From the NCBI GenBank assembly GCA_016125265.1, contig WGMC01000008.1, positions 1 to 64,000 on the forward strand: a stretch of 64,000 nucleotides of DNA, given 5' to 3'. How positions within the stretch are numbered: position 1 is the stretch's first letter; each line of letters begins with the position of its first letter. This stretch comes from Planctomycetaceae bacterium. GTDB taxonomy: Bacteria > Planctomycetota > UBA1135 > GCA-002686595. Below the pieces are notes generated by a model. That model searched no databases and had not been told where the DNA came from. It saw only the letters and a list, made by a program, of their open reading frames with translations. Positions 8,631 to 45,962 of the stretch are shown here, in pieces. The translations under genes were made by a program, and so were the position numbers.

Positions 8631-9082
8631 ACTCACCGATCCAAAGCCACACCTCCCGCAGCGACGAGGAGGACTTCTCCGCCGAGTACCCGCGGCACAA
8701 ACACCCGGCCATCCGCGTCGTGATGATGCCCCGGGACACGAACGCCCTCGGAACCATCTTCGGCGGTGTGATCCTGTCCGAGATCGACTTGGCGGCCGCG
8801 ATCGAAGCGCACCGCTACCACTCGGGCCGCATTGCGACCGTGGCCATGGACACGATTGAGTTCAAACGCCCGGTTTTTGTGGGCGATTTGGTGTCGTTCT
8901 TCACCGAGACGACCCGCGTCGGTACCACGTCCGTCACGGTCAAGGTGTCCGTCTGGGCGCAACGACGCTTTGGCAGCCACGTGCGTGTGCCCGTGACGGA
9001 AGCGAGTGTCACGATGGTCGCGGTGGGCGAGGACGGCCAGAAGATGCCGCTCGAACGCCGCGAGCCCGTGGACATCGACTGA
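8627..9082 (+). CDS. Hotdog-fold acyl-CoA thioesterase (YciA/BACH-like)
   Basis: The protein has 151 residues and one hotdog domain. The motif RDTNALGTIFGGVILSEID carries the conserved N-x-x-G-x-x-F-G-G pattern and the acidic residue of the YciA/BACH acyl-CoA thioesterases; FKRPVFVGDLVSF is also typical. Members hydrolyse acyl-CoA to free acid and CoA in the cytoplasm. The gene overlaps the hydrolase gene by 4 bases (ATGA), so the two are made together. The nested palindromic repeat begins just downstream. Confidence 0.88.
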   Translation: MNSPIQSHTSRSDEEDFSAEYPRHKHPAIRVVMMPRDTNALGTIFGGVILSEIDLAAAIEAHRYHSGRIATVAMDTIEFKRPVFVGDLVSFFTETTRVGTTSVTVKVSVWAQRRFGSHVRVPVTEASVTMVAVGEDGQKMPLERREPVDID

Positions 9083-9129: not shown

Positions 9130-9400
9130 ATTGCGCGGCCGTATTCGCGGGCCGGGTGCGCGGGCCGGGTGCGCGGGCCGGGTGCGCGGGCCTCCAGGCC
9201 CGCCTTGGAGCGCACCCCATCCCGCGATCTGTAGGGGCGCGGCCCTGTCCGCGCCCAAGGGGCGTCGCGCCGCGACAACCGCCCACCGCCCCAAGGCGGG
9301 CCTGGAGGCCCGCGCACCCGGCTCTCCTGCGCCAACCTCCCGCGCACCCGGCTCTCCTGCGCCAACCTCCCGCGCACCCGGCTCCCGTGCACCCGCCTCT
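9130..9400. repeat. Nested palindromic repeat locus 1
   Basis: Arms at 9178-9208 and 9291-9321 are perfect 31-bp inverted copies containing GGGCCTCCAGGCCCGCC. The loop holds a second module at 9228-9262 (starts TCTGTAGGGGCGCGG, ends CCCAAGGGG). Left of the palindrome are repeats of GCGGGCCGGGT; right of it a 30-bp unit with CTCTCCTGCGCCAACC occurs twice. Both modules recur at 18775-18964 with their roles swapped. No gene is credible in 9083-9445. Confidence 0.9.
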
Positions 9401-9445
9401 CGCGCGCATGTCGCCCGCACCGCGCGCGCGGTGGTAGTCCGCGCA

Positions 9446-10501
9446 TTAGAGCGAAATCGGCAACCCCTCGCGGCGAATCAGGGCGCGCGCTTCGGCGAGG
9501 CGCTCCTCGGCCCGATCGTGCGCGCCCAGGTGGTAGTGCCATGCGGCTTCGCTCGACAAGAGCCGCACCAAGGCGGCCGAATCCGACTCCTTCGCCAGCG
9601 TGACCTTCGCGCGCTCCAACTGCGAAGCGCCCTCCTCGGTGCGGCCCCGCGCGAGCAGCACGAGCGCCAAATCGGCCCGCGCGCGGCCGGCACCTGGCCA
9701 TGCCGCGGGCTCTTCGAGGGAGCGGCGCAGCATGCTCTCCGCAAGCTCCAGTTCGCCGCCCTGCGCGTGCACGGCCCCGCTCAGCGCCAGGGCTTTGCGC
9801 CGCGGAACTTCGCTTCCTGAGTTCTCCAGTTCCGCCGCGCGCGCGAGCGCCGCCGCGCGCGAACCCAGCGCAAGCAACGCCTGGGCCTCCAAGAGCACCG
9901 CCGTGTTGCGCGTGAGCCCGCTCTCCGCGGCCGCCTGCGCGCGGCGCGCGGCGACCAAGGCCTCGGCGGACTCCGAGCGGAGCAGGTGCAGTTCGGCGAC
10001 ACGGACCAGCACGGCGGCTTCGTCGGCGGGCGTGGCGCCGGCCGGCCACGGGCTTCCCGCCGGCCGCAGCTCGAGCGCCTCGGTCAGGCCGAAGGGATCG
10101 CCGCTCGTGCAACCGAGTTCGACGGCGCGCCACCACGTTCCGTTCGCGCCGGCACCCGCGCGCGCGCGCCGCAGCGCCTCCTGGAAGAGGATCCAGCCGC
10201 GCCCCGCCTCGCTCGCGAAGAACGCGCCAAGATCCGAGCCAAGGGGACCTTCGCTCGAGGCGTTGCGCAACGCGAGCGCCCGCTCGGGATGGAGCGCCGC
10301 CAACCGCTCGACAGCGCGCGGGCCGCTCCTCTCCCGCCAGCGCAGCCATTCGGCGAGCAGGGCACCGTCGCTCGGTGCATCCGGCGCGGAAACCACCGCG
10401 CCATCCACACGGACTTCGGGCGCTTCGGGGCGCGGTTTCGGTGCGACGGCGGTGCACGACGAAACCACCGCGACGAGCACAAGGGCGAGTGCGGCCTTCA
10501 T
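9446..10501 (-). CDS. TPR-like outer-membrane lipoprotein of the secretin locus
   Basis: The protein has 351 residues with a lipoprotein signal (MKAALALVLVAVVSSCTAV; lipidation Cys about residue 16). The rest is almost all helical, with Ala/Leu/Glu-rich repeats of about 34 residues that look like tetratricopeptide repeats, for example in ALALSGAVHAQGGELELAE. The ATG overlaps the secretin TGA by 4 bases, so the protein is coupled to the secretin and could act as its pilotin or assembly factor. That role is inferred from position only. Confidence 0.75.
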   Translation of the reverse strand: MKAALALVLVAVVSSCTAVAPKPRPEAPEVRVDGAVVSAPDAPSDGALLAEWLRWRERSGPRAVERLAALHPERALALRNASSEGPLGSDLGAFFASEAGRGWILFQEALRRARAGAGANGTWWRAVELGCTSGDPFGLTEALELRPAGSPWPAGATPADEAAVLVRVAELHLLRSESAEALVAARRAQAAAESGLTRNTAVLLEAQALLALGSRAAALARAAELENSGSEVPRRKALALSGAVHAQGGELELAESMLRRSLEEPAAWPGAGRARADLALVLLARGRTEEGASQLERAKVTLAKESDSAALVRLLSSEAAWHYHLGAHDRAEERLAEARALIRREGLPISL

Positions 10502-12183
10502 CCGCCGTCCGGGAGGCCGCTCTGGTAGAGGAACATCTCCCACAGGGGCTGGGTGCCGAGTCCGCCGCGCGGCGCTTCTTCGGGACCGAACGTGCCGAGA
10601 GGGACGTCGCCGAGCGCCGCACCCGACGGATGGAGCAACCCCTCGCCCAGAGCGCGGCTTGCGGCCTCGCCCTCGCCCGGCGTGAACAGCACCCAAGGAC
10701 GCACGATCACGACGAGTTCGCGGCGGCTGCGCACCTTGCGCTCCGCGCGGAACAAGAACCCCAGCACCGGAATGTCCATCAGGAACGGCACACCGGTCCG
10801 CACATCGGCGACACGCTCGTCGATCAGCCCGCCGAGCGCCAACGCCAATCCGTCCTTGGCGACCACCGTTCCGACGACAGAACGCGCCGAGACCACGTCG
10901 ATCGGTTGGTTCGTAACCGTACCCAGGGGACCGACGATGGGGATCGTCGCGCCGCCGACCTGCACTTGGCTCGTTTCCTGCAACACACGCAACGTCACTG
11001 TGCGATCGGCGTTGATGCTGGGCGTGAGCAACAGCGTCGTGCCGACGGAGCGAATCTCGAACTGCGTGTCCGGCGTGTTGGTGACGCTGTTCTCATTCAC
11101 CGTGGTCTGGCTCGTGATGCTGCGCACGATGGGACGCTCTTCGCCGACGAACAGGCGCGAGGCCTCGTTGTTGGCGACCAGAAGCATCGGCCGCGCCAGT
11201 GTGGTCACACGGCCCGCGCGTTGCAGCAATTCGAGGCGCGCGATCAACTCGGAATCCACGAACTGGTAGAGCAGCGTGCCAGCTCCCCGCGTGTTGGCGA
11301 GCGGGCCCGGCCCGTCCCCGAAGAGCAGGGTGCTTTCGCCGCCGCGGTTCAGGTCGAACTCGAAGGCGGACGAAAAACCGTCCTCGAGGTCGAGCTCCAG
11401 AACCTTCACCTCCAGCAGTACCTGCGGCGAGGGCACGTCCAGCGAGCGCACGATTTCGGCGATCTCGTCCAACGCCGCGCGGTCGCGACTGCGCAGGGCG
11501 AGTTGGTTGTTGCGACGCAGCACGGAGAGGTAGATCGGCGCCTCCGGCGGCGCCACCGGGTGGGGTTCGCCCAGGCGTTGGTCCCGTGCCGCCTGGGCGG
11601 TGAGCGCCGTGTCGCCACCCGTCGAGGCGAACGAGGCCGCGCGCCGCGCGGATCCCGAAAGTGTGTCGCTCAAGAGCTCGAGCCTCTCGAAGCGTTTGCC
11701 GATTTCCGCGAGGTCCTCTTCGGCACCCGCCGTATCCGTGTGCAGTTGCACCCTGGGCCCAAACAGGTTGGCGATCGCGCGCGCCACTTCGAGTGCGTTG
11801 GGATAGAGCACCGTCAGCACACGCATCTGTGCGCCCTCGGGCTCGGCATCCACGCGCACCGGTTGGGTTTCGTCGCCCGCGCCAATGCGCAGGAGGCCCA
11901 GTTCGACGTCCTCCGCGACCCAAAGTCCCGCCGACTGCGCCAACGCTTCGACGGCCTGGCGCACGGAAACGCCGCTCAAGTGGCACGAAACGGGCCGTGC
12001 GGCGGATTCGGCCGAAGCGATGATGCTGGCGCTCGACTCCGCCGCGAGCAATGCCAGCGCATCGCCGAGTGGCACGGCGCGCAGTTCGAGCCGCGCGATG
12101 GTCGCGCCCAACTCGCCCTCGGACCCGGGCGTGAGTCCAGCGGCGAGCGCCAACCAGAGCGGGGCAAAAAGACCGCGGTACAT
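10498..12183 (-). CDS. Secretin (GspD/PilQ/MshL family)
   Basis: The protein has 561 residues with a signal peptide (LFAPLWLALAAGLTPGS). An N0/STN-like domain (about 20-95) and an N1-like region (LTVLYPNALEVARAIANLF; NQLALRSRDRAALDEIAEIV) precede the secretin domain. The secretin signature VPFLMDIPVLGFLFR and the RRELVVIVRPWVL tail are clear. It should form the outer-membrane ring of a type II or type IV pilus-like machine. ATG 12183 lies 5 bases after the stop of the upstream gene; an earlier in-frame start at 12216 would overlap it. The N-terminal region is shorter than in GspD. Confidence 0.92.
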   Translation of the reverse strand: MYRGLFAPLWLALAAGLTPGSEGELGATIARLELRAVPLGDALALLAAESSASIIASAESAARPVSCHLSGVSVRQAVEALAQSAGLWVAEDVELGLLRIGAGDETQPVRVDAEPEGAQMRVLTVLYPNALEVARAIANLFGPRVQLHTDTAGAEEDLAEIGKRFERLELLSDTLSGSARRAASFASTGGDTALTAQAARDQRLGEPHPVAPPEAPIYLSVLRRNNQLALRSRDRAALDEIAEIVRSLDVPSPQVLLEVKVLELDLEDGFSSAFEFDLNRGGESTLLFGDGPGPLANTRGAGTLLYQFVDSELIARLELLQRAGRVTTLARPMLLVANNEASRLFVGEERPIVRSITSQTTVNENSVTNTPDTQFEIRSVGTTLLLTPSINADRTVTLRVLQETSQVQVGGATIPIVGPLGTVTNQPIDVVSARSVVGTVVAKDGLALALGGLIDERVADVRTGVPFLMDIPVLGFLFRAERKVRSRRELVVIVRPWVLFTPGEGEAASRALGEGLLHPSGAALGDVPLGTFGPEEAPRGGLGTQPLWEMFLYQSGLPDGG

Positions 12184-12187
12184 GGGT

Positions 12188-12715
12188 TCAGCGCAGCGGG
12201 ACGGGCGCCCCTCCATCGATCACGACCCAAAGCCCGCGGTCCTCTACGAGTTGCAGCCGGCGCTCGGCGCCGTTGTCGTTGAGCACCAGAGTTTCGCCGA
12301 CGGCGAGCCGCTGCAAACCGCGCTGACCCTCGACCTCGAGCAGCACCACCAGGGGCCCTGCTTCCATCTGCAATCGACCGCGCAACACAAGATGCAGGGG
12401 GGCGGGCGCAGCGGGCTCGGGTTCCAGCGCGACGGCGGTGGGCAGGTCCACGGCGGGGCTGCTTTCCTTGGGCGCGAGGAGTCTCTGCATGCGCGCGCTG
12501 GCGCGGAACGGATCGCCGTCGCCCGGTTGTGCGCCGCTGGCGCCGCGGCTGAAGGCAATGGCGAGGAGGAGTATCGGCGCCAGGCACAGAGCAAGTGCGA
12601 GGGCCCGGTTCCCGCGCGACGAGCTCTGCCAAAGGGAGCGACTGCGTGCGAGCGCCGCGCGGGGCACCTTCGACAAGGCTCGCAGTTGGTCCCTTCGTTT
12701 CAGATCCAAAGCCAC
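12188..12715 (-). CDS. GspC/PilP-like inner-membrane protein
   Basis: The protein has 175 residues: a basic cytoplasmic N-terminus, one membrane segment (about 38-56, LALALCLAPILLLAIAF), a linker, and a small beta-rich periplasmic domain (LHLVLRGRLQ, GLQRLAVGETLVLND, VVIDGG). This is the layout of GspC HR domains or PilP, which join the inner-membrane complex to the secretin. The sequence match is weak, so the call rests on layout and position directly before the secretin gene. The GTG start overlaps the preceding gene by 16 bases. Confidence 0.65.
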   Translation of the reverse strand: MALDLKRRDQLRALSKVPRAALARSRSLWQSSSRGNRALALALCLAPILLLAIAFSRGASGAQPGDGDPFRASARMQRLLAPKESSPAVDLPTAVALEPEPAAPAPLHLVLRGRLQMEAGPLVVLLEVEGQRGLQRLAVGETLVLNDNGAERRLQLVEDRGLWVVIDGGAPVPLR

Positions 12716-14880
12716 AGTTTCACCTCGATTTCGCCCTGTTCGCCGCTTTGGTCGAGTTCCAACGCGGCGGGCAACAGGAAGTCCGGTTCCTCGGCGAGGG
12801 CCTGCAGACGCCGCGTCAGGACCGGGAAGGACGTGCGCATGTCGATGCGCCAGCCGACGGGCTTCTCGCCGAGGCTGACCAGCATCTGCGCGAGCGCGAC
12901 CAGCTCCTCCGACGAGCGCGCGATGGCGCCCTCATCCGGGCTGGACGCCGTGATCGTTGCGCCTTCCGAAGCCAAGGCTTCGTTCAACCGCTCGACGATG
13001 CTGCTGCGACTGGAGATGTTGGGCAGGGTCGCGGCGCCGCCGAGCGGCAATGCGTCCCGCGGTACGGCGACGGGCGTGAGCTCGATCACGAAGTCGTACC
13101 CATCGCGCCCGGTCGGGAACGCGCGCCGCCGCTGGTCGGCGGGTGCGACCGACCAACCGGCGCGCGAGAGTTCGCCGGCGAGTGCGTCGGCGAGCTGGTT
13201 CGCCGCGTGGGCGTTGTCACTCACTCCCTCGATGGCGATGGCTCCCCCGAACTTGGCGGCCACACGTCGCACCACGAAGTCCTCGTGGGCGTGGCGGCCG
13301 AGGGCCGCGAGCAGTGCGGGTAAACGCCGGCGCTGCACGTGGTTCTCGTGGGTGAGCGAACGCGCGGGATCGTCTCCCTGCATCCCGGCGACGAACCCAT
13401 CGTCGTTCCGTGCTGCTCGCGCGCGGTCCGCAGCCGCGGCGCTGGATCCCGCGTCGATGGCGGCGTCCGGCAAGGATCCCTCCGGCATGGTCCCCGCGCG
13501 CTGGCCGTCGGACGCCGCAACTTCAGCGACCTTCGCGGCAGCGAGGCTCGACGTCGCGCGGTGTTGGTGCCAGAAGATGCCGCCGACCACGGCCGCCGCC
13601 ATGGCGGCCGGTACGAGCCACGGTGCACCCGAAACGCGCTTCGGCAGCTCCGGGTACGGTGCGGGCTTCGCGGTCGACGGATCGCGTCGCGGTGTGCCGT
13701 GGGGGCTGTCGACCTGCTCCGCGACCTTCGTGGGCTGCGAGCCCAAAGCGGCCCCGGCGCCTGCGGCGGAAGCTGGTTCGGCGGTGCGCACTGCCGCCGC
13801 GACGGGCGCTGGCGCCGGGGGCGCAGATTCGCGGGGAGCCGGCGGTGTCTTGGCGGCCGGTGCTGCGGTGTTGGGCGACGGAGGCGTTTGCGCCGCGCTC
13901 GTCGTTGGCGCCTCCACCTGGTTGCCGAGCGGCGCAGCGGGCGCGTCGCCCATGACGATCGCAGCGGCCACGACGGGTTCCGCGGCGGGGGGCATGGATT
14001 CGGGCTCCGCGCGCGCGCGGAAGTTGTAGTTCTCCTGCGCGTGCACGGTCGCGTTTGCCGGTGCGCGCGGTTCCCGCGCACGCACCTGGCTTTCCGCGTC
14101 GACCGGCACCGCGTGGCCAGGCGGACACGCGGCGAGGCGCGCGGCGACACCGTGCAGCAGTTCCAGGGCGCGGCGCTGGGGCAACAGCGAACGCCGCGGC
14201 AAGAGCCCCGACTTGCTCAACAGGTCGCGGTGGCTTTGTTCGCCGACGAAGAGCGGCGCCGAACCGCGCAACTTCTCGATCCAATCGCCGACGGCGAGCG
14301 CCCAGTGACCTTCGCCCGGCGGACCGTCCACGATGTGCACAGGCGCGCCGTCGCCGCCGCACCACGTCAGATCGGACCATGCTTCCACACGCAGGCCGCT
14401 GCTCTCGCGCAAGACACCCGCCGGATGGGCGATCCAAAGCAGTTCGGAACCCTCCGCGCGCAGCACTCTTCCTGCACCTTCCAACAGGCGCCGATCGGCG
14501 ATCGTGGCCCAATACCGGACCCGGCGGTCGGGCGAGACCAGCTCGTCGAAGCCCACGGCGGCAGCGTCGGGGGTGAGGCCGGTGTGGTCCTCCGCGGCCA
14601 ACGCAAGCGAGCGCCGCAAGCCGCGGATCCCGAGGGCCTGCGGGTCCTCGAGCGGCAAACGCAGCACCCCGGTCCACAATCGGTCGGTCAGCAGGGCGGA
14701 GCGACTGCCCACGGGCGGGGAGCCCTCGAGCAACATGGCCAGAGCCGCACCAAGACCCCCGGCGGGGCCCTCCAGCACACGTCCGTGTGCACGGCGACCT
14801 TCGCGGCCGACGACGTCCACGCGCGCACAGAGCCCGTCCACGAGGAGGAACAGGCTGAAATCCCCTTGCCCAGAGTCCAT
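12700..14880 (-). CDS. GspL/PilM-PilN-like fusion protein
   Basis: The protein has 726 residues. Residues 1 to about 210 resemble the actin-like cytoplasmic domain of GspL/PilM (SALLTDRLWTGVLRLPLED, LRRSLALAAEDHTGL). A long Pro/Ala-rich linker follows, then one membrane segment at about 415-435 (WLVPAAMAAAVVGGIFW), a charged helical stretch, and a periplasmic region with a ferredoxin-like pattern as in PilN/GspL (GAIAIEGVSDNAHAANQLAD). It may combine PilM and PilN roles. ATG 14880 was chosen because homology starts there; a TACGAT box ends 8 bases before it. Confidence 0.65.
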   Translation of the reverse strand: MDSGQGDFSLFLLVDGLCARVDVVGREGRRAHGRVLEGPAGGLGAALAMLLEGSPPVGSRSALLTDRLWTGVLRLPLEDPQALGIRGLRRSLALAAEDHTGLTPDAAAVGFDELVSPDRRVRYWATIADRRLLEGAGRVLRAEGSELLWIAHPAGVLRESSGLRVEAWSDLTWCGGDGAPVHIVDGPPGEGHWALAVGDWIEKLRGSAPLFVGEQSHRDLLSKSGLLPRRSLLPQRRALELLHGVAARLAACPPGHAVPVDAESQVRAREPRAPANATVHAQENYNFRARAEPESMPPAAEPVVAAAIVMGDAPAAPLGNQVEAPTTSAAQTPPSPNTAAPAAKTPPAPRESAPPAPAPVAAAVRTAEPASAAGAGAALGSQPTKVAEQVDSPHGTPRRDPSTAKPAPYPELPKRVSGAPWLVPAAMAAAVVGGIFWHQHRATSSLAAAKVAEVAASDGQRAGTMPEGSLPDAAIDAGSSAAAADRARAARNDDGFVAGMQGDDPARSLTHENHVQRRRLPALLAALGRHAHEDFVVRRVAAKFGGAIAIEGVSDNAHAANQLADALAGELSRAGWSVAPADQRRRAFPTGRDGYDFVIELTPVAVPRDALPLGGAATLPNISSRSSIVERLNEALASEGATITASSPDEGAIARSSEELVALAQMLVSLGEKPVGWRIDMRTSFPVLTRRLQALAEEPDFLLPAALELDQSGEQGEIEVKLWLWI

Positions 14881-14971
14881 CTGGGAGATCGTACCCCGCT
14901 CCCGGGGCCGCGGTCGGCGGGGTCCATCTGCCATGATGCCCCCGTTCCCCCGAACCCCCGGAGTCCGTGCC

Positions 14972-15529
14972 ATGAAGCAGCGCCAGCGTCCCCCCGCCGC
15001 CCGTCCGAACGCCATCCAGTTGGGCCGCGTCGGAGTGGGTCCGTTGGCCGTGTCCGCGCTGCTCGCGGTGGCTGCGCTCGGGGCAGTTTGGATGTGGCTG
15101 CGCATCGACACCCAAGGCGCCGCGGAGCCACACGTCGCGGCCGCGCCGCCGGCCGCGGTGGGCACGCCCCAGACCGCGGTCGACGCCCCGCTCGACGGCG
15201 CCGCGCCGACCCCCGAACCGCGCCGCGAGACCAACGCTCCCAGCGCGCCCGCCGACAGGTTGTTGCGCGTGCACGGCGCGCTGGTGAGCTGGGCCGAGGC
15301 CAACGGCGGCAACTATCCCCAGACGCTGGCCGCCCTAGCCGCGGCGGATGGGGCTGGCCGCCGCTACCTGAACGAGGCCGATCTCGTGGACGGGTTCGGA
15401 CGCCCGTGGATCTACGTGGCCCCGAGCAACCGGGCGCCCTACCAACTGCACAGCTTCGGCCGGGACGGACAGCCCGGCGGCGAAGGCGAGGACCAGGACC
15501 TTTTCCTGGCCGACGTGCTGCCCCGCTGA
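14972..15529 (+). CDS. GspG-like C-terminal fold on a plain membrane anchor
   Basis: The protein has 185 residues. Its C-terminal half matches the end of major pseudopilins: YLNEADLVDGFGRPWIY, then LHSFGRDGQPGGEGEDQD, the calcium-binding region of GspG. The N-terminus does not have a prepilin signal (no G-F/T-L-x-E before the hydrophobic stretch). Instead it has a basic start and one membrane segment at about 28-46. It is divergent from the GspL/PilM-like gene and probably belongs to the same machine. The start follows the first ATG before the anchor. Confidence 0.75.
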   Translation: MKQRQRPPAARPNAIQLGRVGVGPLAVSALLAVAALGAVWMWLRIDTQGAAEPHVAAAPPAAVGTPQTAVDAPLDGAAPTPEPRRETNAPSAPADRLLRVHGALVSWAEANGGNYPQTLAALAAADGAGRRYLNEADLVDGFGRPWIYVAPSNRAPYQLHSFGRDGQPGGEGEDQDLFLADVLPR

Positions 15530-15568
15530 CCGCGAGTCCGCGACATCGAGCGCTCCCCCAAAAGAGCA

Positions 15569-15619
15569 GGGCCCCCGCACACGGGATCCGCCGGAAAGCG
15601 GAGCCGAGTGCGGGGGCCC
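15569..15619. terminator. Bidirectional hairpin between convergent genes
   Basis: A perfect 12-bp stem (GGGCCCCCGCAC with GTGCGGGGGCCC) encloses a smaller TCCGC/GCGGA hairpin. It lies between the stops of the GspG-like gene and the di-haem peroxidase gene. No T tract flanks it. Confidence 0.55.
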
Positions 15620-15648
15620 ATGCGATGGGCCCGAGCCTCAGGTGGGGC

Positions 15649-17745
15649 TCAACTGATGTCCTGGCTCGCGAAGTTCATCTCGTCGATGCCCTTCTCGATC
15701 AGCTTGCGCCGAGTATCCCAGTCCATCGGCGCCATGGCCCAGAAGAAGAAACACTTCGCTTCTTTCAGGTGCTCGCGGGCGACGGGGTTCAGGTCGACTT
15801 CGCTGAGCACCCGCAGGGTGTCGTCGATGTCGCGCAGCGCCAATCGCAGGAACAGGTTGACCGCGGCGTGGTGCTGGGCGTCGAAGATCGACGTCGGCGC
15901 GAACGCACAGGAATCGTGGGCGCGTTTTGCGAACAGGATGCCCGTGTTGATGTTGTCGATCGCGTTGATCGAACGCAGGAACTTGCCCACTTGCTCGCGG
16001 CCCGCTCCGGGGAAGGAGACGGTGAACCCCTGGGCCTGGAAGAACTCGTTGGAGCGGTAGAAGTCGATGGCCTCTTCGATGCCGCCCCAGACGATGTTGT
16101 TGTGGAAGAAGGGGCCCGTGTCGGCCGATTCCACGATGCTGGGTGTGTTGAACTCGCCGTTGCCGAAGCTGCCGGCGGGGCGGTTGGGATCCGAGCCGTT
16201 GTTCGGCACGGGCACGGCCGGGAACAGGCCGTTGGGATCCGTTCCGAAGCCGCCGTCCGCCGGACGCGGTTGGCCGGTCGGGTCGGGGTTGTTGATCAGG
16301 AACTGCTCGACCCCGGTGTTGAAGTTGAAGTTGGGCTGACCGGCACCGGCGTCCGGGTGGCACTTGTTGCAAGAGCTCTGCTGGAACAGGATCTTGCCCG
16401 TTTCCGTGTCGGGGTCGTTGAACGTCAGGACGTTCAAGTCGAAGTCGTTCTGGCGGCCCAAGCTGAGCTGGAACGCTTCCATCGCGACCAACTCCGCGTT
16501 GGTCGGCATGATGAAGTCGATGCCGTTCACGCGGCCGGTGGTGCGCGGGAAGTGTTGGATGACCGCGCCGACGGCGAAGTCGAAGAGGCGGCCCGCGGTG
16601 GGGATGCCGTTCACGATGCCGTGGGGTGCGCCGTCGCCGCTCCAGCCGGTGCGTTCATCCGGCGGTTGGATGCCGTTGCCCGCCTGGATCGACACACCCT
16701 GCGCGAACGTGTGCGGCACGCTGCGCATCACGAACATCTTTTTCAGGTTCGAGAACCCGTCGAGGTTCTCCGTGATCAGACCCAGCTTGCGCATCAACAC
16801 GGGGTTCTCGAAGCGCCGGCTGCCGTTCAGCTCGAACGTCAGCGCGGGCTCGAACTCCGCAACGAACAGCGGGTCCGTGTTGGCGAGCTTCGAAATGAAG
16901 TCCGGGTCGATGGTCAGGTTGTTGTCGGCGGGGTGGCACGTACCGCACGTGCGCTGGTTGCCCATGAAGGTCCCGTTGAAGAACAGGTCCTCGCCTTGGG
17001 CCACGAGCGCGCCGATCGGGCCCGTTCCGAGGGGCCCACCCAGTTGCACGGGCATGGCCAAACCGAGGAGCAGGGCCTGGTCCTTGGCTGCGCGCTCGTC
17101 GGAGACTTCCTTCGCCAGCAGGCGCTGGAACAGCGTGGGACCGCCGAAGAGCACCGCCCCCGTGTCGAGCGGCTCGTCCGAGGCGGCCAGGAAGATCTGG
17201 TCGAGTTCGAAACCCGCGGGCAGCTTGGCGGGCAAGCGGCCCACGAGACGCGTGCCGTCGTCGACGATCTCCATGTCGCGGATCGTCAGCACGATGTCGG
17301 CGGGCTCGAGAAGACTCGTGCCACCGCCTTCGCCGCGGTCGTCCACGAGGCACAGTTGCAGGACCTGGGGACCCGTATCGCGGCTGATGGCCACCGACAC
17401 CTCGCCCGTGGCCAAGTCCACGGACGCACTGCCGGAGAGGTCGGCGAGCGGTTCGCCCTCGCCGCGCAGGCTGTTCATCGGGAACACGAAGCGTGTGCCC
17501 GTGTCGGACGCGAACACCTGGCTCTTCCAGGTTTGGTAGCGGGCCCACAGGCGCTCCGCGTTGCCGTGCAGGGGTTGTCCGAGGGGCAGTTCGACCTTGG
17601 GCCGGGGTGTTGCCCGGCCGACGGTGTCACCGGCCGATGCGACGGTCGCATGGGTCGGCTCGGGCGGTGGTGTGCCCAATGTGGTCGCGGCGTAGATCGC
17701 ACTGCTGGCGCCGAAAGCGCCCAGCAGGAGGGTGACGTGCTTCAT
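15649..17745 (-). CDS. Di-haem cytochrome c peroxidase-like protein
   Basis: The protein has 698 residues with a signal peptide (HVTLLLGAFGASSAIYA). Two haem c sites are present: CGTCH at 266-270 and CNKCH at 459-463. The arrangement is that of the bacterial di-haem peroxidase/MauG group, which acts in the periplasm. It is roughly twice the length of classical CcpA; the first 250 residues are a family-unlike extension. ATG 17745 was chosen for the signal peptide; the frame stays open for another 900 bases by chance. The gap 17746-17978 shows nothing else. Confidence 0.87.
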   Translation of the reverse strand: MKHVTLLLGAFGASSAIYAATTLGTPPPEPTHATVASAGDTVGRATPRPKVELPLGQPLHGNAERLWARYQTWKSQVFASDTGTRFVFPMNSLRGEGEPLADLSGSASVDLATGEVSVAISRDTGPQVLQLCLVDDRGEGGGTSLLEPADIVLTIRDMEIVDDGTRLVGRLPAKLPAGFELDQIFLAASDEPLDTGAVLFGGPTLFQRLLAKEVSDERAAKDQALLLGLAMPVQLGGPLGTGPIGALVAQGEDLFFNGTFMGNQRTCGTCHPADNNLTIDPDFISKLANTDPLFVAEFEPALTFELNGSRRFENPVLMRKLGLITENLDGFSNLKKMFVMRSVPHTFAQGVSIQAGNGIQPPDERTGWSGDGAPHGIVNGIPTAGRLFDFAVGAVIQHFPRTTGRVNGIDFIMPTNAELVAMEAFQLSLGRQNDFDLNVLTFNDPDTETGKILFQQSSCNKCHPDAGAGQPNFNFNTGVEQFLINNPDPTGQPRPADGGFGTDPNGLFPAVPVPNNGSDPNRPAGSFGNGEFNTPSIVESADTGPFFHNNIVWGGIEEAIDFYRSNEFFQAQGFTVSFPGAGREQVGKFLRSINAIDNINTGILFAKRAHDSCAFAPTSIFDAQHHAAVNLFLRLALRDIDDTLRVLSEVDLNPVAREHLKEAKCFFFWAMAPMDWDTRRKLIEKGIDEMNFASQDIS

Positions 17746-17978
17746 CGCAGGCTGCTCTTTGGGGGGTTGTGGTCCGATCGACCGGGGAGAGCGATTCCTG
17801 TCCGCCATGGGCCCTGTCTGCGAAAGGCAGAGTGTTCGCGGGGCAGCGCGACCGGGCGGCGAGGTCTGGTCTGTAGCGTGCCCGCAAAAATCCGCAGCGC
17901 CACACCTGGCCCAGAAACAGTGCTCGCGTTTCCCAAACTCAGGGATGTCTTCCCTGCGACATTCCCCTGGTGAAGGGT

Positions 17979-18743
17979 TTACCCGTGGTGTTGCCGCTGG
18001 CTTCCCCTCCACAGCCCCGCCGCGAGCCAGATTCCGAAAATTGCGAGCGCCGCAGGTGTCCCTCCGGCCGTCCGCACGAAGCCGTCCAGTTCGTCGGCGA
18101 GCAGCAGACCGCCGTTGTGGGCCGCGTGCAGAGCGATGGGCGCGAGCAACCCGCCGCCCACACGGCGGGCGATCCCCAAGGCGCACCCGAGCAGCAGCGC
18201 CCAGATGAGGCCCTCGCCGCCTCCGTGCGCCGCGGCGAACAACAGTGCCGCGCCCACGACGCGTGCGGGCCAGGGCAGTGTCCGAAGCGCCGACCAAAGG
18301 GAGCCGCGGAAGAAAAGCTCTTCCATGATCGCCGCCAGCCCCGCGATCAACAGCAGCCGCGCGCCCAAGCTCAGCCCCGCAAGGTCGAACCCCGCACCCG
18401 TGGGCAGACCGATCGCGGAGAGGTCCATCCAGCCCCGTTGCCAATGCAGCCAGTGGGGCGCCAGCGCCGCGAGTGTCAGTCCGCCGAGCGCCGCCCAGGG
18501 CACGGCCCACGGCGCCCGGGCCACGCCGAGTTCGCGCCAAGCCGGACCGACCGACGACACACGCGCCAACACCAACGCCGCGAGCCCCCACACGCCGATC
18601 GCCAGGGCCGCCCAAACGACCACCGGCTCCCCACCGACGCGCGCCAGTTGCCGCGCGGCCCACGCAGCGGCAACGGCGAGGACCACTCCGACGACGAACG
18701 GACCGCCCCCCCGGCCCGTTCCTCGCCTCCGGTCCCCACCCAT
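17979..18743 (-). CDS. CPBP-family intramembrane metalloprotease
   Basis: The protein has 254 residues and about seven hydrophobic segments. The CPBP (ABI) motifs are in order: EELFFRG at about 138-144 (EExxxR), a later FAAAH segment and HAAHNGG near the C-terminus. These supply the glutamates and histidines of the intramembrane active site. Members act as CAAX-type or other membrane proteases; the substrate is unknown. ATG 18743 was chosen because the frame upstream runs into repeat DNA. The nested repeat 18775-18964 separates it from the ABC ATPase gene. Confidence 0.85.
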   Translation of the reverse strand: MGGDRRRGTGRGGGPFVVGVVLAVAAAWAARQLARVGGEPVVVWAALAIGVWGLAALVLARVSSVGPAWRELGVARAPWAVPWAALGGLTLAALAPHWLHWQRGWMDLSAIGLPTGAGFDLAGLSLGARLLLIAGLAAIMEELFFRGSLWSALRTLPWPARVVGAALLFAAAHGGGEGLIWALLLGCALGIARRVGGGLLAPIALHAAHNGGLLLADELDGFVRTAGGTPAALAIFGIWLAAGLWRGSQRQHHG

Positions 18744-18774
18744 ACCGCCAGTGTGCCGCACGGGCGTGTCGCGG

Positions 18775-18964
18775 TCTGTAGGGGCGCGGCCCCGTCCGCG
18801 CCCAAGGGGAAACCCAAGACGCGCGGTCGCCGGTCGCGCATCGCCAGGTACGCGGGCCGGGTGCGCGGGCCGGGTGCGCGGGCCTCCAGGCCCGCCTTGG
18901 AGCATGGGGCGGTTCCCCGCAGTGCGCCGCCCCTTGGGCGCGGACAGGGCCGCGGCCCTACAGA
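18775..18964. repeat. Nested palindromic repeat locus 2, modules swapped
   Basis: Arms at 18775-18809 and 18930-18964 are 35-bp inverted copies of the TCTGTAGGGGCGCGG module, with two mismatches. The centre (18870-18900) is the 31-bp GGGCCTCCAGG module that forms the arms of locus 1 at 9178-9321. Repeats of GCGGGCCGGGT precede it here too. The right arm runs over the end of the ABC ATPase gene: its CTGTAG supplies the last Leu codon and the stop. Confidence 0.9.
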
Positions 18965-19752
18965 TCGGAATCGGCGGGGCCCAGGAGGCGGGTGGCGGCG
19001 GCCCTGGGGTCGTCGGCTTGGGTCAGGGCCGCGAAGACCTGTTCGAGGGTGCCCTCGCGGCCGGCCCGTTGGCGCAGGTCGTCGAGGGCGCCCTCGGCCA
19101 CGAGTTTGCCCTTGTCGAGCACCGCCATGCGGTCGCACACCCGCTCGACCACGTCGAGGAGGTGCGAGGTATAGAGCACCGCGCCTCCGCGGTCCGCCCA
19201 GGTCCGCAGCACCTCCTTCAGGAGGGCCGTGCTGGTGGCGTCGAGACCGGTGAGCGGTTCGTCGAGCACCAACAACTTGGGCCGCGGCAACAGCGCGCAC
19301 GCAATCGCCGTTTTCTGCCGCATACCGCGGCTGAAGGTGCCAACGGGATCGTCGGCCCGCTCCAACAGGTCGAATCCGCCCAAGAGGCGCGCCGCATCGG
19401 CCGCGATCGCCCCCTCGCCCAGCCCAAACAGCCGACCGACCAACTGGAGGTGCTGGCGCGGCGAGAGCTGCGCGTAGAGCGGCGCGCCGTCTGGCACGTG
19501 GCCGATCGCGCGTTTGGCCGCGAGCGGATCCTTCGCCACGTCGTGGCCCGCCACGAGCGCCCGTCCGGCGCTGGGCTCAAGCAAGCCGCACACCATGCGC
19601 AGGGTAGTGGTTTTTCCCGCGCCGTTGGAGCCGAGCAGGCCGAAGACCTCGCCTGAGCGTACCTCGAGATCGAGCGGCGCCACGGCTTCGCGATCGCCGA
19701 ACCGTTTGGTCAGGCCCTCGAGGGCGAGCACCACTTGCCCGCCGCGCGCCAT
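18958..19752 (-). CDS. ABC transporter ATP-binding protein
   Basis: The protein has 264 residues: one nucleotide-binding domain with Walker A at 41-48 (GSNGAGKT), Walker B at 159-164 (LLVLDE) and a TSH switch histidine. The signature loop is FSRGMRQ rather than LSGGQ, as in several drug/ABC-2 exporter ATPases. It needs a permease partner; none is adjacent. ATG 19752 overlaps the ispH TGA by one base (TGATG), so it is coupled to ispH. Its last codon and stop come from the arm of a dispersed repeat, so the original C-terminus may have been trimmed. Confidence 0.9.
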   Translation of the reverse strand: MARGGQVVLALEGLTKRFGDREAVAPLDLEVRSGEVFGLLGSNGAGKTTTLRMVCGLLEPSAGRALVAGHDVAKDPLAAKRAIGHVPDGAPLYAQLSPRQHLQLVGRLFGLGEGAIAADAARLLGGFDLLERADDPVGTFSRGMRQKTAIACALLPRPKLLVLDEPLTGLDATSTALLKEVLRTWADRGGAVLYTSHLLDVVERVCDRMAVLDKGKLVAEGALDDLRQRAGREGTLEQVFAALTQADDPRAAATRLLGPADSDL

Positions 19753-20654
19753 CAAACCGGTTGGCGCAGCGAGAGCCGATCCACGAGGTGCGCCACGATG
19801 GCGTCGATCACCTCGACGGGTGTGGATGCGCCCGCGTGGATGCCGACGTGGCCCTTGCCTTCGAACCACTCGAGCTGCACGTCCGCGACCGTTTCCACGC
19901 GGTGCGTGGGCACACCGCCGGCGCCGCAGACCTCGGCCAGCTTGATCGTGTTCGAGCTGTGGGGCGAACCCACCACCAAGATCACGTCGGCCGCGCCGGC
20001 CAGGTGGTTGGCCTCGGCCTGGCGCTCCGTCGTCACGTGGCAGATCGTGTTCACGATCTTCACTTCCCGGGCCTTCGGTACGAGCGCCGCGGCGATCTTG
20101 CCGGCCTTCTCGGCGATCAACGTCGACTGGATGACGATGCCGGCCTTCTTGAGGAGAGGCAGGGCCTGGGCTTGTTCCAACGTCTCGAGCACCGTCGCCT
20201 TGCCGCCGTGCTCTTCCACCGACGCGACCACGCCGATGATCTCAGGATGCTGGGCCTGGCCGACCACGAACACCTCGTAACCCTCGTCCACCAGGGCCCT
20301 GGCCTTGCGGTGGATGATGTCGACCAGGGGGCAGGTGCCGTCGAAGACTTCGAGGCCCGCCGCCTTCGCCTCGCGTTTGACGGCCGGGGGCACACCGTGG
20401 GCCCGGATCACGAGGGCCGAGCCGACCGGCGCGGCCAGGTGGTCGTCGACGTGGGTGACACCGTGCTCCCGACGCAGCTTCTCGACGGTGTGGGAGTTGT
20501 GGATCAGTTCCCCGTGCGTGAACACGGGGCGCTCTTTGTTCTCCGCGGCCTTGACGGCGAAGTCGATGGCGCGCTCCACACCCCAGCAGTAGCCGGCGCT
20601 GTCGGCAACCTCGATCAGGACCGAGTCGTCCTTGGACTTGGTGATGCGGGACAT
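19752..20654 (-). CDS. ispH: 4-hydroxy-3-methylbut-2-enyl diphosphate reductase
   Basis: The protein has 300 residues. The three cluster cysteines are at 23 (GYCWGV), 108 (GTCPLV) and 205 (NTICHVT). The substrate-binding stretches THGELIHN, RAHGVPP and GSPHSSNT are present. IspH makes IPP and DMAPP from HMBPP in the last step of the MEP pathway, in the cytoplasm. It follows the radical-SAM-like gene by 29 bases and overlaps the ABC ATPase gene, so all three form an operon. ATG 20654 fits the family; the frame is open far upstream by chance. Confidence 0.95.
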   Translation of the reverse strand: MSRITKSKDDSVLIEVADSAGYCWGVERAIDFAVKAAENKERPVFTHGELIHNSHTVEKLRREHGVTHVDDHLAAPVGSALVIRAHGVPPAVKREAKAAGLEVFDGTCPLVDIIHRKARALVDEGYEVFVVGQAQHPEIIGVVASVEEHGGKATVLETLEQAQALPLLKKAGIVIQSTLIAEKAGKIAAALVPKAREVKIVNTICHVTTERQAEANHLAGAADVILVVGSPHSSNTIKLAEVCGAGGVPTHRVETVADVQLEWFEGKGHVGIHAGASTPVEVIDAIVAHLVDRLSLRQPV

Positions 20655-45622: not shown

Positions 45623-45962
45623 CGATGGGGCGGGCTTTCAGCCCTTGCAGCTATGCCCGCAGAACCTGGGGCGTTGCTCCAGGCTACTATCGGGCGGGGC
45701 GTTGCCCCTTCGCGGCGAGCGCACGTCGCCGCGACACCGATGTCGCCGCGACGCGCATGTCGCCGATATCGCTGTGACGAGGATGCTACTGCGACGAGGA
45801 TGTCGCTGTGACGAGGATGTCGCTGTAACGGTGTGTTGCTGTAACGGTGTGTTGCCCGGCGCCGAAGGCGCTCCGAAGCGCCGAAGGCGCGCCCGATAGT
45901 AGCCTGGGGCAACGCCCCAGGTTCTTGGGGTCGCGGAGCCAAGGGCTGAAAGCCCGCTCCAT
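45623..45962. repeat. Inverted pair of three-hairpin elements around simple repeats
   Basis: Copy 2 (45623-45711, minus orientation) and copy 3 (45890-45962, plus orientation) of the element at 245-333 face each other. Copy 3 lacks the first hairpin. Between them are short tandem repeats: GACGAGGATGTCGCTGT (17 bp) about three times, then a 15-16-bp unit with AACGGTGTGTTGC twice, then GCGCCGAAGGCGC-type inverted repeats. The arms could form a long cruciform. There is no gene in 45561-46003. Confidence 0.9.

Follow-up and report, generated by a model that had tools for sequence, protein, structure and literature searches.

The two palindromic repeats of the analysed window (the whole stretch of 64,000 nucleotides) are both REP elements and represent two REP families of this genome, named here A and B. 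The commonest arrangement of paired A copies is a composite, A-B-A', in which two inverted copies of A enclose a single copy of B, and it is likely that this composite is a REPIN which was spread as a unit and moved by a RAYT-like transposase encoded on contig C3.

The A unit consists of GCCGGGTGC followed by GCGGGCCTCCNGGCCCGC and CTTG, and its tag is CCGGGTGC instead of GTAG. About 149 copies were counted genome-wide using the pattern with CTTG and at most one mismatch, and none with the reversed pattern as control; a higher count of 198 matches was rejected because A nearly equals its own reverse complement and some copies had been counted twice. The B unit is composed of CTGTAG, the stem-loop GGGCGCGG-loop-CCGCGCCC and AAGGGG (consensus TGTAGGGGCGCGGCCCTGTCCGCGCCC), and 121 copies were found when up to three mismatches were allowed (control, 0), with CTGTAG present in 93 of 119 copies. 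GTAG REPs are recognised by an unpaired GTAG adjoining a stem of 6-13 bp with a short loop, and B has this structure, with the tag unpaired next to an 8-bp stem (TGTAG followed by GGGCGCGG-ccctgt-CCGCGCCC). Both copy numbers are those of high-copy short palindromic repeats, as in REPINs. The sequence around the genome-wide matches was inspected in 97 stretches (269 kb).

Copies of both families are strongly paired in inverted orientation. Adjacent A pairs (n = 54) were head-to-head (HH) in 47 cases, tandem in five and tail-to-tail (TT) in two (p about 1e-21), and among the 35 adjacent B pairs the corresponding numbers were 28, four and three (p about 1e-11), some of the HH B pairs enclosing an A. 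The inverted pairs of A and of B carry their tag on the outside, which is the arrangement of REPINs, and in both families they are mostly doublets with a short spacer that are predicted to form hairpins as single strands (z = -9.4 and -6.3 at the two window loci). A comparison of sequence conservation between doublets and singlets is biased, as laxer criteria had been used to find the paired copies. A lack of preferred pairing or inversion, which the sequence-only reading had named as the outcome that would speak against it, did not occur; its suggestion of a REP/RAYT-like system gained support from the many loci, the strong inverted pairing and the presence of a Y1 gene of RAYT type adjoining an A-A' pair.

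Locus 1 of the window (9177-9322) is a complete composite, with an A-to-B offset of 44 and an A-to-A' offset of 110, matching about 30 other loci. Its arms (9177-9212 and 9287-9322) have 36 nt each, are 97% complementary and are separated by a loop of 74 nt; the predicted hairpin has a folding energy of -71.9 kcal/mol (z = -9.4) and none of 200 shuffled sequences folded equally well, which confirms the palindrome of A arms with B in the loop that had been described at this place. The left arm contains the exact A core GCGGGCCTCCAGGCCCGC (9186-9203, plus strand) preceded by the tag GCCGGGTGC, and the right arm an exact copy on the minus strand (9296-9313). The B in the loop (9230-9262, plus strand; also given as 9230-9256) matches the consensus exactly and has CTGTAG at the 5' end, and the arm on its GTAG side carries GGAGC, a minority state among the composites. 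The locus is placed between convergent genes, with ORFs ending at 9082 (plus) and 9446 (minus). Outside the left arm the A tag is repeated in tandem as 13-nt units (GCGGGCCGGGTGC; direct repeats at 9146-9185, plus strand), and outside the right arm there are tandem 30-nt units made of the A end CCCGCGCACCCGGC and flanking bases (9309-9405, plus strand; repeat family D1). The repeat units reported earlier beside A were recovered at both window loci, as GCGGGCCGGGT arrays at 9147-9170 and 18852-18875.

The canonical composite consists of A, 18 nt, B, 25-26 nt and A', has a length of about 145 bp and is present in about 30 copies. The gap between A and B of the same orientation was 18 nt in 33 of 50 pairs, and that between copies of opposite orientation was 25-26 nt in 43 of 48. 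Moreover, the arms, spacers and B of the composite are conserved at a mean information of 1.3-1.8 bits, against 0.33-0.46 bits outside the tag. The two inner flanks are different. GTTCC-type sequence adjoins the GTAG-side arm in 17 composites out of 31 and is never seen on the opposite side, where 26 of the 31 carry a flank of the GGAGC type. As the inner flanks of the two arms differ in this way, the composite must have been copied as one unit. The earlier proposal of a process that assembles palindromes from two modules is therefore not upheld: A-B-A' is one fixed, asymmetric composite which is copied whole. Among other A pairs, some lack B and have a short loop of 27-31 nt, and some enclose a B-B' pair.

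Template switching at hairpins had also been suggested. That the palindromes are made locally in this way during replication, one arm being repeatedly copied from the other so that A-B-A and B-A-B are built independently, is rather unlikely. Four copies of B are perfect palindromes (TGTAGGGGCGCGG...CCGCGCCCCTACA), as the correction of quasi-palindromes would yield, and the tag units and adjacent host bases standing in tandem outside the arms are a sign of slippage. However, the arms of a composite are no more similar within a locus (92.7%) than between loci (92.2%), the base in the loop is shared between the arms no more often than by chance (p = 0.28), and this asymmetric composite has the same spacing and the same spacers at unrelated sites. 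Local homogenisation of the arms, for which no excess similarity was found, was thus rejected; local errors of hairpin copying do occur, but they do not explain the composite, given that the two arms of a locus show no homogenisation.

The four palindromic B copies lie at C9:221291 (L040), C11:3456 (L008), C11:89950 (L010) and C39:3755 (L099), and their form suggests hairpin-templated correction. The tandem units of A tag and a few host bases run outward from the A arms (9146-9185, 9309-9405 and 18850-18877 in the window) and are seen at many other loci as well; they probably arose by replication slippage.

At locus 2 the arms (18772-18809 and 18930-18967) have 38 nt, are 92% complementary and enclose an exact A core (18878-18895), and the hairpin predicted for them (z = -6.3) was equalled by none of 200 shuffles; the palindrome with B arms and an A centre is therefore also real. 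Its parts are of unequal standing. The right-hand portion (18869-18962) is half a composite, with A at 18878-18895 (plus strand) and B at 18930-18962 (minus strand) separated by 26 nt, the gap of the canonical composite, while the second A arm is absent and the sequence beyond this B is unrelated to the composite. Tandem A-tag units adjoin the A (18850-18877, plus strand, containing the GCGGGCCGGGT pattern noted above). The outer B (18777-18809, plus strand, one mismatch) has its GTAG directed outward and is separated from the next A by 68 nt, a distance that is not fixed. Locus 2 is thus a copy of the composite minus one A arm, with a second B upstream, and the idea that the two window loci are equivalent products of a reciprocal swap of arms and centre could not be maintained: the spacing of A-B-A' is fixed and that of B-A-B is not. 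When all 22 B-A-B triplets were listed, 20 had one A-B gap equal to that of the composite (18 or 24-26 nt), and the other gap ranged from 28 to 225 nt.

The outer B can nevertheless not be regarded as a mere independent neighbour, a view that proved too simple. At about ten loci a conserved linker of about 90 nt, T, connects the outer B to A, from which B-A-B and A-B-A appear as fragments of one nested family. The outer B has its GTAG outward in 20 cases and inward in eight (p = 0.036), which is a modest bias, and a single locus (C24:131180-131490) shows a degraded symmetric form, B-T-A-A'-T'-B'. T is not recognisable at locus 2 of the window. With its second B upstream, this locus probably represents part of a larger nested arrangement, B-T-A-b-A', which is found at other loci.

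A further reading, that A-B-A and B-A-B result from random insertion of both REP families into targets already rich in repeats, with nesting as a mere consequence of target preference, is quite improbable. Clusters of REPs and REPs inserted in other palindromes are known (PMC3733652), the distance from A to the outer B varies, and insertion into a REP-rich target is a fair account of some of the outer B copies. Against this reading, the central B occupies the same position, with the same flanking sequence, in about 30 copies, and this requires that the arrangement was founded once and its parts were then transferred together.

Two Y1 transposase genes were found in the genome, a RAYT-like one on contig C3, which is not the contig of the window, and an IS200-like one on C27. 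The product of the C3 gene matches PF01797 above the cut-off and scores 70.8-71.1 bits (E about 1e-19) with the model NF047646 (REP_Tyr_transpos), for which the curated cut-off of 80 is not reached; it is therefore called RAYT-like and not a certified member of that model, the cut-off of which was passed in only one of 14 control genomes. It has a conserved HUH motif (H120 and H122, MPNHVH) and two conserved tyrosines (163 and 180), candidates for the catalytic residue. A search of solved structures with this protein gave no match. Downstream of the gene, at about 50-140 nt from its 3' end, there is an A-A' pair with a short loop, and the C3 RAYT is thus flanked by REPs of family A. Homologues from other phyla (46-61% identity) are flanked by A-like REPs with the same design, CYGGGNNCGCGG and a GC-rich stem (for example CCTGGGTGCGCGGGCC...GGCCCGCGTACCCAGG in L120), which are few in the genomes of these homologues, with 0 to 9 matches. 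This ties CCGGG-tagged, non-GTAG REPs to a defined RAYT clade across several phyla. In 153 other genomes of the same order just one weak homologue (35%) was found, and within this order the link between RAYT and repeat is based on one genome. Only A, of the two modules, is linked to the RAYT that was found; neither PF01797 nor NF047646 revealed a B-specific or B-flanked RAYT in the assembly, which is 92% complete.

The inverted A pairs, with the tag outside and the ability to form a hairpin as single strands, would be REPINs dispersed by a RAYT, most likely the one encoded on C3. An A REPIN would at some stage have received a B REP in its loop, and the resulting A-B-A' composite of about 145 bp would then have spread as a unit. 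The C3 RAYT may thus move A-ended hairpins, including the composite, as single strands with B as cargo. Against this reading counts that neither transposition events nor empty sites nor target duplications were seen. Further points against it are the NF047646 score below the cut-off (71 of 80 bits), the failure to find a B-flanked RAYT in the assembly, the restriction of the link between RAYT and repeat to one genome of this order, and the modest orientation bias of the outer B. The dinucleotide cleaved by TnpA-REP is CT next to the REP (PMC8266576), and the CT beside the GTAG of B matches it, so that B probably had in the past, or has elsewhere, a RAYT of its own. It is tentatively possible that one RAYT spreads a second REP family, which lacks a transposase, by carrying its REP along as cargo in the hairpin loop of a composite REPIN, and that this gave a three-level nested palindrome, B-T-A-b-A'. 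If true, such transport would keep an orphan REP family spreading. The fixed two-family composite, with a single candidate transposase and hardly any copies in the relatives searched, offers a natural test case for the interaction between REPIN families.

REPINs and RAYTs were described by Bertels and Rainey in 2011 (PMC3116915; model in PMC8049555), and the repeats reported here share with them the inverted REP doublets with short spacer, the hairpins, the more than 100 copies and the single RAYT beside one doublet, but differ in that a REP from another family occupies a fixed position in the loop of the dominant A doublet. The unpaired GTAG of B, its 8-bp stem and its HH dimers are those of the GTAG REPs of Di Nocera et al. 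2013 (PMC3733652), where hybrid dimers, made of two families, have already been described, as have REP dimers within longer palindromes. In a comparison at the level of description, the tag of A and the abundance and fixed form of the two-family A-B-A' distinguish our repeats from these. In the same paper TIRtrons are RAYTs flanked by non-GTAG inverted repeats, in moderately abundant families and in several phyla, which resembles the present case, although the present repeats number about 149 and carry a GTAG REP as cargo. REPINs, RAYTs, GTAG REPs, hybrid dimers and REPs in palindromes are therefore known, and the abundant fixed two-family composite is the unusual feature. As the kind of RAYT known to spread such repeats is present in the genome, we regard it as an unusual variant and not as a new system.

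In 60 relatives B had no copy and A only one single weak match with one mismatch. The RAYT and both modules are, judged from the genomes compared, private to this genome, and the near absence of the modules from the relatives searched suggests a recent spread. That selection maintains the repeats as functional elements of the host, either terminators or RNA hairpins, their likeness to REPINs being secondary, is highly implausible even though locus 1 lies between convergent genes and locus 2 at the end of an ABC transporter gene, where the TAG of B is the stop codon, as the relatives lack the repeats save for that one weak A match, the repeats are tied to a transposase and REPs are common downstream of genes regardless (PMC3733652).

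The ABC transporter ORF occupies 18958-19869 (minus strand), and the stop codon that it shares with the GTAG tag of B falls within 18958-18962. Between the two window loci there is a secretin gene (PF00263, GspD-like; 10498-12216, minus strand).

A third REP family, the GTAG-tagged GTAGCCTGGGGCAACGCCCCAGG, is present in the window in three copies (267-289, plus; 45665-45687, minus; 45899-45921, plus). This family surrounds the IS200-like Y1 gene on C27 with several copies. Moreover, Acido-Lenti-1 (RF01687), listed in Rfam as an sRNA, matches this family in the window (45877-45921, minus strand) and at L061 and L066, and in this genome the RF01687 'RNA family' looks like the REP of a Y1 transposase.
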